From Rothia nasimurium (lineage in GTDB: Bacteria; Actinomycetota; Actinomycetes; Actinomycetales; Micrococcaceae), in contig NZ_CAKMSR010000001.1 of assembly GCF_928381705.1 (NCBI RefSeq), positions 124,001 through 188,000 on the forward strand: a stretch of 64,000 nucleotides of DNA. The letters are read 5' to 3'. Below are positions 21,527 to 59,144 of the stretch, one piece after another (the stretch's first letter is position 1; each line of letters opens with the position of its first letter). The notes under the pieces are model-generated. The model was given only the letters and a program-made list of their open reading frames with translations. It had not been told where the DNA came from and made no database searches. A program made the position numbers and the translations under genes.

Positions 21527-21632
21527 TCTTTTAGGCTACCGGCAAGGTCACGATTTGATGAAGTTTTTACCGCAGTTTGAGCGGTTTTTGCGGGAGATTT
21601 CTGCGGACGCCCGCCCCGGCTCACATACCTTT

Positions 21633-21688
21633 CCGCATTTATTCTGATTTACCCGCAACTAGTTGCGGGGTTTTCAGAATAAATGCGG
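21633..21688. repeat. Palindromic repeat family A, copy 1 (3' side of nuclease gene A)
   Basis: A 56-base nested palindrome. The outer 15-bp arms are CCGCATTTATTCTGA (21633-21647) and its exact complement (21674-21688), there is a 4x4 internal loop (TTTA/GTTT), and the inner perfect palindrome is CCCGCAACTAGTTGCGGG (21652-21669). It starts 14 bases beyond the stop codon of the gene at 21703. There is no T run, so it is not an ordinary terminator. Copies recur at 22915-22970 and 26958-27019. Confidence 0.95.
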
Positions 21689-21702
21689 AGAGGTCTCGAT
21701 AA

Positions 21703-22626
21703 TCACTGTTCCAACTTCCTCACTCCACCACGTATGAGGCGCTGAATTACGACCCGCGGCCTGTTCATAAGGTCGTCCCAGGTGGCCCGAACGACCGTCC
21801 ACCCCGCAAGTTCAAGCGAACGCTGCCGCAGAGCGTCCCTACGCAACTGCTCCTCAGGTGAGCGGTAGGCGCCGTAGTACTTGTGTAGGCCATCGACTTC
21901 TAAAAGAAGTTTCAAAGACTCCCAGGCAAAATCTGCGCGGTGCACTCGACCGTCGTGCGTCCAAATTTCTAGCTGCTGACGAGGGCGTTCAAGCTTGGAC
22001 TGTACGATTCTGAGCATTGCCAGGGATTCAAGAGGTGACTCGGTCAAAGCGCTCATCGACTCAGCGATGAGGGAAAAGCTTCCCGTTCGATAGCCGCTAG
22101 AGCTTGCGAGGTGGGCATACACATCGCGGTAAGGCACATGCGCATGATGCAGAAAATAATCTGTAATCGCCAAGGCCTGAACCGCCGGTAAAGATCGGGC
22201 GCAATCAAGGATAGTCGTGAGCGGGTCCGTGACCGGAAAACCAGCTACAATCTGGGCCGCCTCACACACTTCTGACCGGGCGCTATGGTACCTGACCTGG
22301 CTATGGTGCCGATGGTTAGAACGCGGAAGAGACAACTCAACCTTTGCAGGCAACCTAAAGAGCGGAGCGCCCCACATGAGAGCAGCAGAAGCATGACTGA
22401 GCACCGCCTGCCGATGAGACATCGCGAGCGCTATTGTCACAGCGATACACCGCTCTTCGGGCGTGAACTGCCGACCTTCTGCCGCTGAGATATAGACACC
22501 CCGCGTCAGCCGAATCAGCTCACCCCGCCGGTGCATAGCACCAATGAGGTTTTTACTCACTCCTTCCAGATTGAGCTGTTGAGATGTTTTGACTTTTGAG
22601 GCAACCCGTTCGATTCTGTCGTGCAT
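21703..22626 (-). CDS. AbiEi-like winged helix + DUF559 (Vsr-like) nuclease-domain protein A
   Basis: A 307-residue protein from the ATG at 22624-22626. The N terminus resembles the AbiEi antitoxin winged helix (GELIRLTRGVYI), the middle has LSHASAALMWGAPL, and the C terminus has the DUF559/PD-(D/E)XK pattern: RADFAW (Asp232), LLLEVDG (Glu243, Asp245), KYYGAY and LRQRSLELAGW. It is a paralogue of the genes at 34464-35360 and 58060-58977, which share all these motifs. Acidic catalytic positions are intact, so nuclease activity is plausible but unproven. The gene is framed by repeat A copies on both sides. Such proteins are often annotated as type IV antitoxin-like, but no toxin gene adjoins here. 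Confidence 0.8.
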   Translation of the reverse strand: MHDRIERVASKVKTSQQLNLEGVSKNLIGAMHRRGELIRLTRGVYISAAEGRQFTPEERCIAVTIALAMSHRQAVLSHASAALMWGAPLFRLPAKVELSLPRSNHRHHSQVRYHSARSEVCEAAQIVAGFPVTDPLTTILDCARSLPAVQALAITDYFLHHAHVPYRDVYAHLASSSGYRTGSFSLIAESMSALTESPLESLAMLRIVQSKLERPRQQLEIWTHDGRVHRADFAWESLKLLLEVDGLHKYYGAYRSPEEQLRRDALRQRSLELAGWTVVRATWDDLMNRPRVVIQRLIRGGVRKLEQ

Positions 22627-22914
22627 GAGACTACTGTGGCAAAGCAGCCAGGGGCACTCAAGTAGCATTTTTAAATCTGTGGATAACCCGCGTTATCCCT
22701 TATCAAGACATGCTTCTATCATGTGGATAAAACCGCAACAGAAGGTCACAGTTGGAACCGCCCCCTTATGCGCCCCACGGAGCCACTACCCAACCGCTCA
22801 AGCAGAAGCCGCCACGGGCGTCCGCGCCGCGCCCAGCTATCGCACCACCCCGCCCGACTCGCGCGGCCCACCCGACTCGCGCGGCCCACCCGACTCGCGC
22901 GGCCCGCTATCTCC
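22627..22914. other. Upstream region of nuclease gene A with two DnaA boxes
   Basis: 288 bases without a gene. TGTGGATAA (perfect DnaA box, reverse strand) occurs at 22678-22686 and 22722-22730, and GGATAAC-CCGC-GTTATCC forms a dyad between them (22681-22698). The distal part is C-rich and carries three tandem 18-base units at 22853-22906. Confidence 0.6.
22853..22906. repeat. Three tandem 18-base units
   Basis: The unit CCCGACTCGCGCGGCCCA is repeated three times; the last unit ends in G. It lies inside module A, just before repeat A copy 2. An open reading frame crosses it, but nothing supports a protein. Confidence 0.9.
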
Positions 22915-22970
22915 CCGCACTTATTCTGATTTACCCGCAACTAGTTGCGGGATTTTCAGAATAAATGCGG
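22915..22970. repeat. Palindromic repeat family A, copy 2 (5' side of nuclease gene A)
   Basis: 56 bases, two mismatches to copy 1 and in the same orientation. The outer arms have one C-A mismatch, and the inner CCCGCAACTAGTTGCGGG (22934-22951) is unchanged. Flanking DNA is not shared, so the repeat unit is the 56-mer itself. About 170 bases of C-rich, G-poor sequence without features follow up to the TetR operators. Confidence 0.95.
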
Positions 22971-23101
22971 AAAGTTTGCCCGGTCGCACCTAACTCTCCA
23001 CCCGCACTACCCCCACACCCGTCCACCCGCACTAATCCACCACTCCACGTCCTCACTAGCCCACACTCATCCGCTCGTGCCTAACCCCACACCCCAACTA
23101 T

Positions 23102-26957: not shown

Positions 26958-27019
26958 TGCCCGCATTTATTCTGAAAAACCCGCAACTAGTTGCGGATGA
27001 ATCAGAATAAGTGCGGGCA
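26958..27019. repeat. Palindromic repeat family A, solo copy 3
   Basis: 62 bases; the outer arms TGCCCGCATTTATTCTGA and complement extend 18 bp with one mismatch, and the inner CCGCAACTAGTTGCGG (26981-26996) is perfect. Judged by its loops it lies in reverse orientation to copies 1 and 2. No nuclease gene is next to it; it separates the MMPL gene from the asparaginase gene. It has four or five differences from copy 1. Confidence 0.93.
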
Positions 27020-34338: not shown

Positions 34339-34464
34339 CCTAGCCGAGCGCGGACGTCCGCGCCTACACCGCTAACCCTTTTCTAACTGTGGCGCTGACC
34401 GCCAAATGTGGCAACGCCACCGCCACATTTGGCGGTAGCCACAACATGTTGCGCTCACGCCCAT
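34339..34464. repeat. Palindrome-bearing direct repeat family B, copy 1 (3' side of nuclease gene B)
   Basis: 126 bases repeated at 35563-35688 with about seven differences and no gaps. Each copy contains CGGACGTCCGCG, then a 15-bp hairpin ACCGCCAAATGTGGC/GCCACATTTGGCGGT (stem from 34398) with a 9-base loop, then outer TGTGGC/GCCACA arms and an ACATGT palindrome. The copy ends exactly at the stop codon of the gene at 34464. No T run follows the hairpin. Confidence 0.93.
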
Positions 34465-35360
34465 CAGCGGACGCCCTTGTCCACCAGGTTCTTTCGCACA
34501 AGCTCAGGGTTATTCATCAGGTCGCTCCACCTAACACGCACAAAACGATAGCCTCGTAGCTCAAGGTCACGCTGACGAATAACCTCCTTCTGAAGCACAT
34601 GATCCGGCTGCCCATAAGCTCCCGAGTACTTCACGTCTCCATCGACCTCCAGGATGACCTTGGCATCCTCCCACAAAAAATCAGGACGATAGTACCGCTG
34701 CCCCACCCAAATAACTTTCTGTTCCTCAGGCCGAGACAGGCCCCACGACATCACCAGATACCGTGCAACCGTCTCTGCAGGCGACTCAGATTTTTCGCTC
34801 ATATACTCAGCTATCTTTTGACGCTGTTTCGAATACCTACCGCTGCTTTTGAGCAGGGCACTCCGCAGCTCGGCAGCTGGCACCAAACGGTGGTGCAGAA
34901 AATAGTCCGCAACGCACAAAGCACTCAAAAAAGGAAGACTCTGACAGCAGTCAAGTATCGTCTGAAGAGGCGTAGTCACAGCTAGCCCCTGATTCAGTAC
35001 TGCCTGGTCACAGATTTCTTTGCGCGACCTACTCACATGTACACCCGGTTTTGACCGCACAGCAGAAGAAGCGCTGCTCACCCATATCTTTGCGGGTGCT
35101 TCCAATAAAGGCGCTCCCCACCAAAGAGCTGCAGATGAATGACTCAGCACATACTGAGGGTGCGTCTTCATAAACGCCACATGCTGGGCTATAAACCGGT
35201 GACGGCCGTCCCAACTTTGCCACGTCTGCACCGGCGTATAGGCATTGGTCGCGATTTTATACAGTAGACCCCGTCGACACCGCCGAGAAATTTCGGACGA
35301 GCTGATACCTTCGTCTTTCAGCTCCGATGAGGTTTTGATCTGATCGTATATCCTGCTCAT
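34464..35360 (-). CDS. AbiEi-like winged helix + DUF559 nuclease-domain protein B
   Basis: A 298-residue paralogue of the proteins at 21703 and 58060. The ATG at 35358-35360 (MSRIYDQIKTS) aligns with the paralogue starts; a GTG 18 bases upstream is possible. It has a winged-helix part (GLLYKIATNAYTP), LSHSSAALWWGAPL, then RPDFLW (Asp227), VILEVDG (Glu238, Asp240), KYSGAY and IRQRDLELRGY. Catalytic acidic positions are intact. The gene looks lower in GC than its neighbours. It is bracketed by the two family B direct repeats and interrupts the region between purM and DUF3073. A cellular role as a nuclease, defence or mobility protein is inferred only. Confidence 0.8.
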   Translation of the reverse strand: MSRIYDQIKTSSELKDEGISSSEISRRCRRGLLYKIATNAYTPVQTWQSWDGRHRFIAQHVAFMKTHPQYVLSHSSAALWWGAPLLEAPAKIWVSSASSAVRSKPGVHVSRSRKEICDQAVLNQGLAVTTPLQTILDCCQSLPFLSALCVADYFLHHRLVPAAELRSALLKSSGRYSKQRQKIAEYMSEKSESPAETVARYLVMSWGLSRPEEQKVIWVGQRYYRPDFLWEDAKVILEVDGDVKYSGAYGQPDHVLQKEVIRQRDLELRGYRFVRVRWSDLMNNPELVRKNLVDKGVR

Positions 35361-35562
35361 ACCCACTACCTTGACCACCAGACCTCGCGTTTTCTAGAGG
35401 GGGCGGTGAATCTGTGGATAACTTCAGCTATTTTTTGCTCTTATCAGCCTGTATGTCGTAGCGGCCTCGCTATGTGTTAAGAATCATCCACAGGGCTTGA
35501 CAGCTTTGCAAGTATCGGCGCTGCTCCAGGAACCGCGAAGACGGACGACTCTGCGCGACGTG
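35361..35562. other. Upstream region of nuclease gene B with a DnaA box
   Basis: 202 bases. TGTGGATAA (perfect DnaA box on the reverse strand) lies at 35413-35421, about 55 bases before the gene start, much as in gene A. A near match, TCATCCACA, is found around 35486. Reading leftward, TGATAAG precedes GTTATCCACAGATT, as it does before gene A. Confidence 0.55.
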
Positions 35563-35688
35563 CCTAGCCGAGCACGGACGTCCGCGCCTACACCGCTAAC
35601 CCTTTTCTAACTGTGGCGCTAACCGCCAAATGTGGCGACGCCACTGCCACATTTGGCGGTAGCCACAACATGTTGCGGCCCCGCCCAT
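35563..35688. repeat. Palindrome-bearing direct repeat family B, copy 2 (5' side of nuclease gene B)
   Basis: Same orientation as copy 1, offset 1224 bases. The hairpin stems are 35622-35636 and 35646-35660. Differences from copy 1 fall in the loop, one arm-adjacent base and the last ten bases. Confidence 0.93.
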
Positions 35689-35690
35689 AC

Positions 35691-35728
35691 AAAAGCCCGC
35701 CACCGGCGGGCGGTGGCGGGCTAGAAAA
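35691..35728 (-). terminator. Terminator of the DUF3073 gene
   Basis: GCCCGCCACC/GGTGGCGGGC (35695-35704 with 35712-35721), followed leftward by TTTT. Confidence 0.85.
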
Positions 35729-35762
35729 AGAGACGGGAAGAACCCGCGTGGTGCTACGCGGG

Positions 35763-35969
35763 TTACTTCTCTTGATAATCGTCGGCGTACTTATCTGCGT
35801 ATTCCGAGTAGTCGTCCTCGTCATCGTACTGATAACCAGACGACTTAGACTGAGAGCCAGCATTCTTGCTGAGCTCCCGCTCAAGTGCAGTGTAGTCAGT
35901 GTCGGGGCTGAAGTACTTCATCTCCCGAGCCTGCCGAGTTGCTTTAGCCTTCTGACGGCCGCGCCCCAT
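35763..35969 (-). CDS. DUF3073 small protein
   Basis: A 68-residue protein starting MGRGRQKAKATRQARE, with YFSPDTDYTALERELS and a Tyr/Asp/Glu-rich tail, the DUF3073 signature found throughout actinobacteria, usually close to purM. The function is unknown. The basic start and acidic end suggest a nucleic-acid-associated or disordered protein. Upstream, about 215 bases (35970-36185) show no recognisable feature. Confidence 0.88.
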   Translation of the reverse strand: MGRGRQKAKATRQAREMKYFSPDTDYTALERELSKNAGSQSKSSGYQYDDEDDYSEYADKYADDYQEK

Positions 35970-40727: not shown

Positions 40728-40791
40728 GACCCTATCGCTTCTCTCTTGACCCCGAGATAATCCGTAGGGTCAAGAGAGAAACAATAGGGTC
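40728..40791. repeat. 64-base nested palindrome between the sirtuin gene and clpB
   Basis: Outer arms GACCCTAT/ATAGGGTC (40728-40735, 40784-40791), 3x3 internal loop CGC/ACA, inner arms TTCTCTCTTGACCC and complement (14 bp, 40739-40752 with 40767-40780), and a 14-base loop. It lies 11 bases past the clpB stop. The tail read leftward is T-rich (TTTGTCTTTT), so it may simply be the clpB terminator; its plan resembles repeat family A. Confidence 0.85.
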
Positions 40792-57964: not shown

Positions 57965-58015
57965 TGTTGGGCTAGCGTCCCGCCCGCCCGCGTCCGTCCA
58001 CCCGCGTCCGCCCCG

Positions 58016-58060
58016 AAAAGTGCAAGTGCCTGTGCAAAAGTGACAGGCACTTGCACTTTT
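58016..58060. repeat. Palindrome family C, copy 1 (3' side of nuclease gene C)
   Basis: 18-bp perfect arms, AAAAGTGCAAGTGCCTGT (58016-58033) and its complement (58043-58060), with a 9-base loop GCAAAAGTG. Its last base is the final base of the stop codon of the gene at 58060. The TTTT tails on both strands mean it may act as, or simply be, a bidirectional terminator. Confidence 0.9.
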
Positions 58061-58977
58061 TAAGCGGCATCTAGTCGCCGCACCCCGTGCCGTAGCAACA
58101 GACAAACCACGTGCTGCGGGCGGTGGGTGAGGTCTTCATAGGTGATTCGCAAAACCTTCCAGCCCTCGTTCTCTAACTCGCGCTGCCGGAAGAGATCTTG
58201 TTGCCGCTGTTCGTCAAAAGACCGATAAGCCCCGGTGTACTTGATACGGCCGTCGACCTCGAGGATAAGCCTGAGGCGCCGCCACATAAAATCAGGACGA
58301 TAGCGGCGGCCACTGCTCGTAACCACCCACCGCTGCACAGCGGGCAGCTCAAGATTTTCAAGCACCATCAGAAAATACGCCTGAGATTCTAGCGGTGATT
58401 CAAGCTCGGTCGTCAGGCTCCGTGCCAGGATACGAGCTTGCTTCGCGCCGCGGTCGGAGACGGCTAGTAGCGCATCGTGCAGCAGGTACTGGTTGCAAAG
58501 GTTCTGGTGGAGAAAATAGTGTGCAACCGTCACCGTGGTGAGCGCCCGCTGGTGACCGATACAGCTCAGGACGGTGTCTATAGGTGAGAGAACCGTAAGG
58601 CCCTGGTGTTCCTGTGCCCTATTTATTGCTTCAGCAGGAGTGACGCAGCGGCGAATGCCCTGCTGTTTGCCGCGATCGCGCCAGGAACTCGCGAGGTAGA
58701 TATGAGAGGGGAGTTCAAGGAGGGGCGCTCCCCAGGCAAGAGCAGCGGACGTGCGTGTAAGGACGGCGTGTGAGCGGGTTTTGCTCACCGCTATGTGGTG
58801 TATCAGGGCACGCTCGGTAGGGGTTGCCTGGGCGAGAGTCTGGGTTTTGATGTAGGCTCCCTGTCTGAGACGGACAAGCTCTTTGGACCGCACTGCGTCA
58901 CTAATTTTGCGACTGGTCAGTCCCTGTAGTCGTAGGTCACCGGTAAGAAGTACTGAGTTATATAGGTGCTGGCTCAT
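58060..58977 (-). CDS. AbiEi-like winged helix + DUF559 nuclease-domain protein C
   Basis: A 305-residue third paralogue: winged-helix part (ELVRLRQGAYIKT), LTRTSAALAWGAPL, then RPDFMW (Asp229), LILEVDG (Glu240, Asp242), KYTGAY and FRQRELENEGW. Its start MSQHLYNS lies 82 bases from palindrome C copy 2 and close to tRNA-Arg, a common integration site. The catalytic positions fit a PD-(D/E)XK nuclease. The biological role is not known; see the separate findings. Confidence 0.8.
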   Translation of the reverse strand: MSQHLYNSVLLTGDLRLQGLTSRKISDAVRSKELVRLRQGAYIKTQTLAQATPTERALIHHIAVSKTRSHAVLTRTSAALAWGAPLLELPSHIYLASSWRDRGKQQGIRRCVTPAEAINRAQEHQGLTVLSPIDTVLSCIGHQRALTTVTVAHYFLHQNLCNQYLLHDALLAVSDRGAKQARILARSLTTELESPLESQAYFLMVLENLELPAVQRWVVTSSGRRYRPDFMWRRLRLILEVDGRIKYTGAYRSFDEQRQQDLFRQRELENEGWKVLRITYEDLTHRPQHVVCLLLRHGVRRLDAA

Positions 58978-59059: not shown

Positions 59060-59104
59060 AAAAGTGCATATGCCGTCGACTTATCCACAGGCGTTTGCAT
59101 TTTT
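59060..59104. repeat. Palindrome family C, degenerate copy 2 (5' side of nuclease gene C)
   Basis: AAAAGTGCATATGCC (59060-59074) and GGCGTTTGCATTTTT (59090-59104) pair at 12 of 15 positions; the left arm differs from copy 1 at two positions over 15. The 15-base loop carries a perfect DnaA box TTATCCACA (59081-59089). Confidence 0.6.
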
Positions 59105-59144
59105 CGGGTGGCGTACAGGTTTTCGTGTAAACTGGTGGAGTTGC

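Follow-up and report, generated by a model that had tools for sequence, protein, structure and literature searches.

The window analysed here is a stretch of 64,000 nucleotides from Rothia nasimurium, whose genome (G000) comprises 2.6 Mb in 63 contigs. In this window, gene B, which encodes a putative nuclease, is enclosed by two copies of a 126-bp direct repeat (Table 1). A reading made from the sequence alone had described this arrangement, which proved correct: the pair of repeats lies around the 304-aa gene, the copies match at 119 of 126 positions with no gaps, both contain a perfect inverted repeat whose 15-bp arms are separated by 9 nt (arms at 34398-34412/34422-34436 in copy 1 and at 35622-35636/35646-35660 in copy 2), and the first copy overlaps the last base of the TGA stop codon of gene B. 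When one copy was compared with the genome by BLAST, the other was returned at an E value of 3e-51, which excludes a chance match. Apart from gene B and an antisense ORF of 128 aa within it, there is no ORF of at least 80 aa between the repeats. A classical transposon or integrase element was thus rejected, as no transposase or site-specific recombinase is encoded there, and gene B itself has no Pfam match to either. The earlier reading had also placed the module between purM and a DUF3073 gene, which it called normal neighbours in actinobacteria. The module does lie between these two (both names, putative, are the ones given in that reading), but so do two further genes, which we take from their translations to encode a glycosyltransferase and a phosphodiester glycosidase. 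Around the B palindrome there may be a 4-bp duplication, GCGC, a sign of which is seen at a single site.

Table 1. Coordinates of the features discussed, as positions in the window
Feature	Position	Strand	Remarks
Gene B	34464..35378	-	304 aa; AbiEi-like first two thirds, Vsr/DUF559-like nuclease C-terminus; conserved D233, E244, D246, K250
Repeat copy 1, downstream of gene B	34339..34464	+	palindrome, ~23-nt spacer and locus flank
Repeat copy 2, upstream of gene B	35563..35688	+	
Inner palindrome of copy 1	34398..34436	.	
Inner palindrome of copy 2	35622..35660	.	
GCGCGGACGTCCGCGC	34348..34363	.	near-identical sequence, common core CGGACGTCCG, in G016, G028 and G004, without gene or palindrome
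TTATCCACA (DnaA-box sequence) upstream of gene B	35413..35421	-	
Gene A, paralogue	21703..22626	-	42% identical to B
A-type palindrome, downstream copy	21617..21692	.	
A-type palindrome, upstream copy	22900..22974	.	
Two TTATCCACA sites upstream of gene A	22678-22686, 22722-22730	-	
Gene C, paralogue	58060..58977	-	35-36% identical to B
C-type palindrome, downstream copy	58012..58059	.	
C-type palindrome, degenerate upstream copy	59061..59108	.	contains TTATCCACA (59081)
Solo A-type palindrome	26961..27017	.	in G016, 4.8-kb block between two copies here
Solo G-type palindrome	40730..40789	.	in G018, gene pair between two copies here

A DUF3073 protein is encoded in all 35 genomes of the genus, and 30 of these loci were compared by BLASTN (E 1e-4). 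In the ten genomes closest in DUF3073 sequence, G000 being one of them, the B site is full in three (G000, G018 and G019, gene B being 99-100% identical in the latter two), carries one palindrome and no gene in one (G005), and is cleanly empty, with no palindrome, in another (G016). Gene and palindrome are likewise missing from G028 and G004, where the flanks bear deletions, and in G017, G020 and G030 the site is rearranged or diverged next door. The other 20 compared loci gave no nucleotide match to the gene or the repeat at E 1e-4 (one of them, L069, ends at a contig end). These states support the earlier proposal of a discrete insertion of about 1.35 kb, and the single repeat expected where the gene is absent was indeed found, in G005; relatives that all carry the gene, with repeats diverged in step with the genome, are not what is seen at this site. 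The sequence CGGACGTCCG is already present beside the palindrome position in the palindrome-free G016, G028 and G004, and the 126-bp repeat of the full state takes in locus flank on both sides. The G005 state is not simply that of G000 minus the gene, because the spacer beside the palindrome differs between the two. As the nearest relative of gene B under 75% identity is located at another site, the gene B module, in view of these different site states, seems to have reached a new site in a comparatively recent move.

The B module is one of a large family and not a local oddity. Twelve full-length members, gene B included, were found in the source genome, the other 11 being 29-52% identical to gene B, together with one fragment. 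All 12 have a palindrome on both sides, and its sequence is different for each member. K, M and C have a degenerate copy upstream; for E, the top-scoring flank matches are tRNA genes, and a separate E palindrome pair is also present. The fragment belongs to a 13th member (L053, G000 C2:262251-262601), has TTATCCACA about 125 nt upstream, and is probably a module remnant. The motif GCGGACG/CGTCCGC occurs 54 times in the whole window, against 9-24 times in ten first-order Markov sequences, with 45 of the 54 occurrences in ORF regions. GCGGACG was rejected as a target motif: it lies near 6 (upstream) and 8 (downstream) of the 12 own modules, but it is common window-wide.

Homologues were detected in 29 of the 35 genus genomes (E 1e-10), and 119 genus genes were compared, at least two partial matches (G017 C13 and G004 C53) being left out. 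In 110 of the 117 genes with enough flanking sequence, the match between the two flanks was above the 99th percentile of 1045 partner-swapped controls; for at least L045, L107, L109, L113 and L196, the scored alignment reaches beyond the palindrome or misses it. The same threshold was passed by none of 218 ordinary ORFs of at least 200 aa in 400 kb of the source genome. In the 112 passing genes of all 119, the shared flank stretch has a median length of 67 nt, begins a median of 6 nt past the stop codon and ends a median of 158 nt before the start codon, and the two copies match at least as well in direct orientation in 68 cases and better inverted in 44. The unit is palindrome-gene-palindrome. 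In G028 (L196, C4:1045680), a shortened K-type gene is present between flanks with a common direct repeat of some 208 bp, which seemingly includes sequence of a neighbouring gene.

The family extends far beyond the genus. A profile built from 30 members, used at E 1e-15, found a match in 129 of 149 genomes of the order, often several in one genome, and in 86 of 296 genomes of the phylum, the own genome included in both counts. A distant set of 54 loci (L298-L351; L295-L297, from the own genus, and L352 were left out) provided 51 usable homologues, and the flank pairs of 36 of these exceeded the 99th percentile (22) of their own 601-pair control. By rank, such pairs were found in 4 of 5 homologues from the family, 21 of 25 from the order, 4 of 4 from the class and 7 of 17 from the phylum. 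With gene B as the query at E 1e-5, there were partial matches in 1 of 50,697 phage records and 2 of 72,556 plasmid records.

PADLOC AbiEi profiles match all 30 of the members used for protein comparison. At E 0.01, Pfam gives MTES_1575 (PF18741) for 24 of them, DUF559 (PF04480) for 20 and AbiEi_4 for 19, gene B itself being below the curated cut-offs of all three, and the five Pfam families matched by any of the 30 include no transposase. A sequence search of the PDB yielded 3hrl (E 6e-5) and two weak RAP-domain hits. In a structure model made from four sequences (mean pLDDT 68.5, residues 74-134 poor), the C-terminus matches 3hrl (Z 10.9), the catalytic domain of I-Bth0305I (3r3p; Z 10.4, rmsd 2.7, 94 aligned) and Vsr (1cw0; Z 9.1, rmsd 3.8, 105 aligned). 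The match of the model to the AbiEi fold is weak (Z 3.5, rmsd 12.4), and Foldseek by itself gave no match at E 0.001. All of 100 proteins have E244, D246 and K250, and 98 have D233; the median dN/dS in 11 orthologue groups is 0.07-0.16, i.e. the genes are under purifying selection. AbiEi is reported to bind a pair of 23-bp inverted repeats with 3 bp between them, and Rv2827c binds pairs with 13 bp between them, neither protein binding the repeats of the other (PMC7319586). Such an operator geometry fits palindromes of about 50-70 bp.

Palindromes were compared for 103 genes, leaving out L045, L107, L109, L113, L196 and L126. They were alike (score of at least 20) in all 135 pairs with a protein identity of 80% or more, in 4 of 4 pairs at 70-79%, in 29% of 17 pairs at 60-69%, and in 0-1% per bin of the 5097 pairs below 60%. 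Palindrome similarity thus follows protein identity, and each protein lineage has a palindrome of its own. Much in the top identity bins can be put down to descent alone, since most pairs above 80% are same-site orthologues; we consider the informative part to be that below about 60% protein identity the palindrome differs, even at the same site. Palindromes of J and J51, which share a site, had a score of 23 in one pair and of 8 in the others. Homogenisation of the left and right copies by gene conversion was weak, as a gene's own pair matched better in only 141 of 246 comparisons. Palindrome similarity is tracked best, if modestly, by residues 53-133 (rho 0.24-0.36), the winged helix giving no signal (-0.03 to 0.06), so that any one domain is only a tentative candidate for the palindrome reader.

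Grouping of the modules by site, done by comparison of flanks, demonstrated that they are inserted at, or missing from, intergenic sites, that this differs between genomes, and that both orientations occur. Same-site swaps are seen at the C, D and J sites, where the flanks are 87-98% identical and the proteins 44-62%. Alleles in opposite orientation, with 44-71% protein identity, are found at the C and J sites (flank identity 87-98%), at a K-like site (L105/L108; 89-94%) and at an H/J-like site (L171/L176; 76-79%). Diverged alleles at the D and G sites have the same orientation, apart from one inverted D allele (L120). Flank homology stops within about 110 nt of the palindromes in 8 of 12 comparisons (for L140/L142, only the left side is resolved) and ends farther out in L116/L120 and L102/L141; in L150/L159 a repeated stretch led to a wrong join on one side, and for L102/L103 no boundary was obtained. 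With nine site groups set by hand, and with L165, L166 and L187 (single-side matches) and the L107/L109/L113 group left out, the closest relative below 75% identity was located at the same site for 44 of 50 genes, the chance expectation being 1.6. Moves to new sites therefore look rare.

Palindromes are found also on their own. The hairpin-holding parts of the B repeat occur at four further places in the genome with no family gene adjoining; the type B palindrome is present at six places in all, four of them solo. With part of the candidates scored, type A occupies at least nine places (seven solo) and type G at least seven (five solo), and a 400-kb sample contained four solo copies, which were of types A, C, I and M. 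At one place a B and an I solo adjoin, the B solo there being absent in G028. The solo sites that we followed across relatives are mostly shared, and thus mostly old. The two solo sites listed in Table 1 hold cargo in one relative each. At the A solo, six relatives are contiguous over a single palindrome, and G016 has its block between two A palindromes (L277 1480-6387); judging from translations, we take this block to be a bgl-type operon with a BglG-like antiterminator, a 6-phospho-beta-glucosidase-like gene and a PTS-like gene. At the G solo, eight relatives are contiguous, and the pair of genes that G018 bears between two G palindromes (L281 1563-2327) is, presumably, MazE/MazF-like, again from translations. 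At yet another place (L278, G000 C2:11500-18000), three A palindromes and one G palindrome surround two small genes; the same is found in G019 and G004, and two A and one G are present in G005. The order there is, as we read the genes, phosphotransferase-like, A, small lipoprotein-like, G, A, small membrane gene, A, lgt-like. This place is array-like, each A copy being preceded by a near copy of the 3' end of the first gene. In G016 (C38, L369/L375), an I palindrome is separated by about 8 kb of extra DNA from what comes after it in G000.

The DnaA-box sequence TTATCCACA is present at most 200 nt upstream of 84 of 115 genus genes, while 0.005 would be expected per gene, and of its 48 occurrences in the genome, 11 are located at modules (10 of the 12). 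A relaxed form of TTATCCACA was found downstream of none of the 115 genus genes. Upstream of genes in a wider set, the relaxed form occurs in 8 of 53 cases, which makes this feature strong in the genus only. Sites of this kind are also located upstream of genes that we read as dnaA and recA, and in L353 (1900-2283; G000 C7) four of them are placed within less than 400 bp between two genes, presumably SodA-like and MarR-like. Expression of the modules is probably tied to DnaA through the upstream TTATCCACA, where we infer that DnaA acts.

Taking all this together, we favor the explanation that the module is a self-recognising mobile gene, whose protein probably binds its own palindrome and cuts or nicks it, host recombination then moving the module. 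In this scenario, the AbiEi-like part would bind the palindrome with one monomer per arm, and the dimer would join two Vsr-like nuclease domains, leading to a cut or nick at the palindrome. Host recombination might then repair the break with a further copy of the site as template. Being palindromic, the bounding repeats could recombine in any of three ways: as direct repeats, with loss of the gene and one palindrome left behind, as inverted repeats, by which the module would flip, or with a palindrome on incoming DNA, by which a module or other cargo could be gained. The own palindromes of the genome might be spared if the enzyme nicks, if it acts on extruded or single-stranded palindromes only, or if its expression is tight.

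The main alternative is that the palindromes serve autoregulation only, as AbiEi-type operators (the downstream one perhaps as an insulator), and that modules move passively by homologous recombination in their flanks. On one hand, AbiEi reportedly autoregulates through inverted repeats at its promoter (PMC7319586), and the dominance of same-site lineages (44 of 50) is what allelic exchange would give. On the other hand, operators require neither a copy a median of 6 nt after the stop codon, nor solo copies, nor cargo between copies, and the invariant nuclease motif also speaks against them as the whole explanation, which we therefore regard as unlikely. We find it rather improbable, too, that we deal with a conflict or recognition system, in which the nuclease destroys competitor or donor DNA bearing the palindrome and frequency-dependent selection maintains the alleles, as with idiomorphs or the specificity loci of restriction systems. 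This idea would agree with the diverged alleles seen at fixed sites whose flanks are conserved, with the purifying selection (dN/dS 0.07-0.16), with the presence of 12 members with different palindromes in one genome, and with the near absence of gene B relatives from phage and plasmid records. However, the genome retains its own palindromes, and since the nuclease gene is the only content that its modules have in common between the palindromes, no modification or immunity gene is evident.

It seems barely conceivable that the hairpins are ordinary terminators or RNA hairpins duplicated by chance. Their downstream position, beginning a median of 6 nt past the stop codon, might be expected of terminators, yet no terminator was called at either 126-bp repeat, the calls being at 35694-35764 and inside the gene. 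In 156 palindromes tested (orthologues among them are not independent), mismatches of the G-T kind mildly exceed A-C ones in the upstream arms (73 vs 44), as in an RNA hairpin, but there is no such excess in the downstream arms (63 vs 64). Duplication by chance is contradicted by the fact that the two sides match each other gene by gene.

Several known systems resemble a part of what we describe. With I-Bth0305I and the EDxHD/Vsr-like homing endonucleases, the family shares a Vsr-like catalytic fold and a nuclease gene that behaves as an insertion, and I-Bth0305I is reported to dimerise on a target of nearly 60 bp (PMC3943268). It differs from them in having an AbiEi-like DNA-binding part, in lying outside introns and inteins, and, if the palindrome is its site, in retaining that site to either side of the gene as well as at other places in the host. 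An enzyme gene flanked by palindromes, with more copies dispersed between genes, is also a feature of REP/RAYT systems, where a REP class goes with its RAYT (PMC3686654). REP palindromes are, however, described as 20-40 bp long (PMC3733652), whereas those of the family are mostly about 56-70 bp, with a shared stretch of 67 nt (median); REP copies number from tens to over a thousand, whereas the family has at least 6-9 per class (three classes searched), and its modules are at fixed sites. Identity with RAYT was rejected, as there is no tyrosine transposase: the C-terminus is Vsr-like, and no transposase Pfam was matched among the 30 members. The AbiE type IV toxin-antitoxin system has in common with the family the AbiEi-like first two thirds and the operator geometry of two inverted arms, but the family carries a C-terminal nuclease. 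No match to the AbiEii partner (PF08843) was found in the whole genome at E 0.001 (in a control, it was detected in 4 of 14 known genomes), and membership of an AbiE system thus fails, although the AbiEi-type protein is there. Finally, for the MTES_1575 REase the literature gives a Vsr-type REase fold that is joined to HEPN and further domains (PMC3710099). Although 24 and 20 of the 30 members match MTES_1575 and DUF559, respectively, gene B is under both cut-offs, and no palindromes appear in the part of the MTES_1575 description available to us (PMC3710099). In titles and abstract openings, with most subscription papers and preprints outside the coverage, no description of palindrome-flanked DUF559/AbiEi genes was found.

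Our results suggest that self-recognising mobile genes of this kind, apparently undescribed, are widespread across actinobacteria. A broader proposal can be put forward only tentatively, and we would not rely on it in full: a phylum-wide, unrecognised class of elements may exist, in which a chromosomal AbiEi-Vsr nuclease and a palindrome of its own, about 60 bp long, diversify together as a specificity pair, and in which dispersed palindromes would be docking sites where the nuclease, under the control of DnaA, helps genes to be captured, lost, inverted and exchanged, catabolic operons and toxin-antitoxin pairs among them. As 129 of 149 genomes of the order carry homologues, this would be a common actinobacterial system behind the 'DUF559' and 'AbiEi' labels. 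The co-diversifying pairs of protein and palindrome offer a collection of enzyme-site specificities that is ready for testing, and the solo palindromes together with the cargo suggest a transposase-free route of gene gain at fixed intergenic sites.
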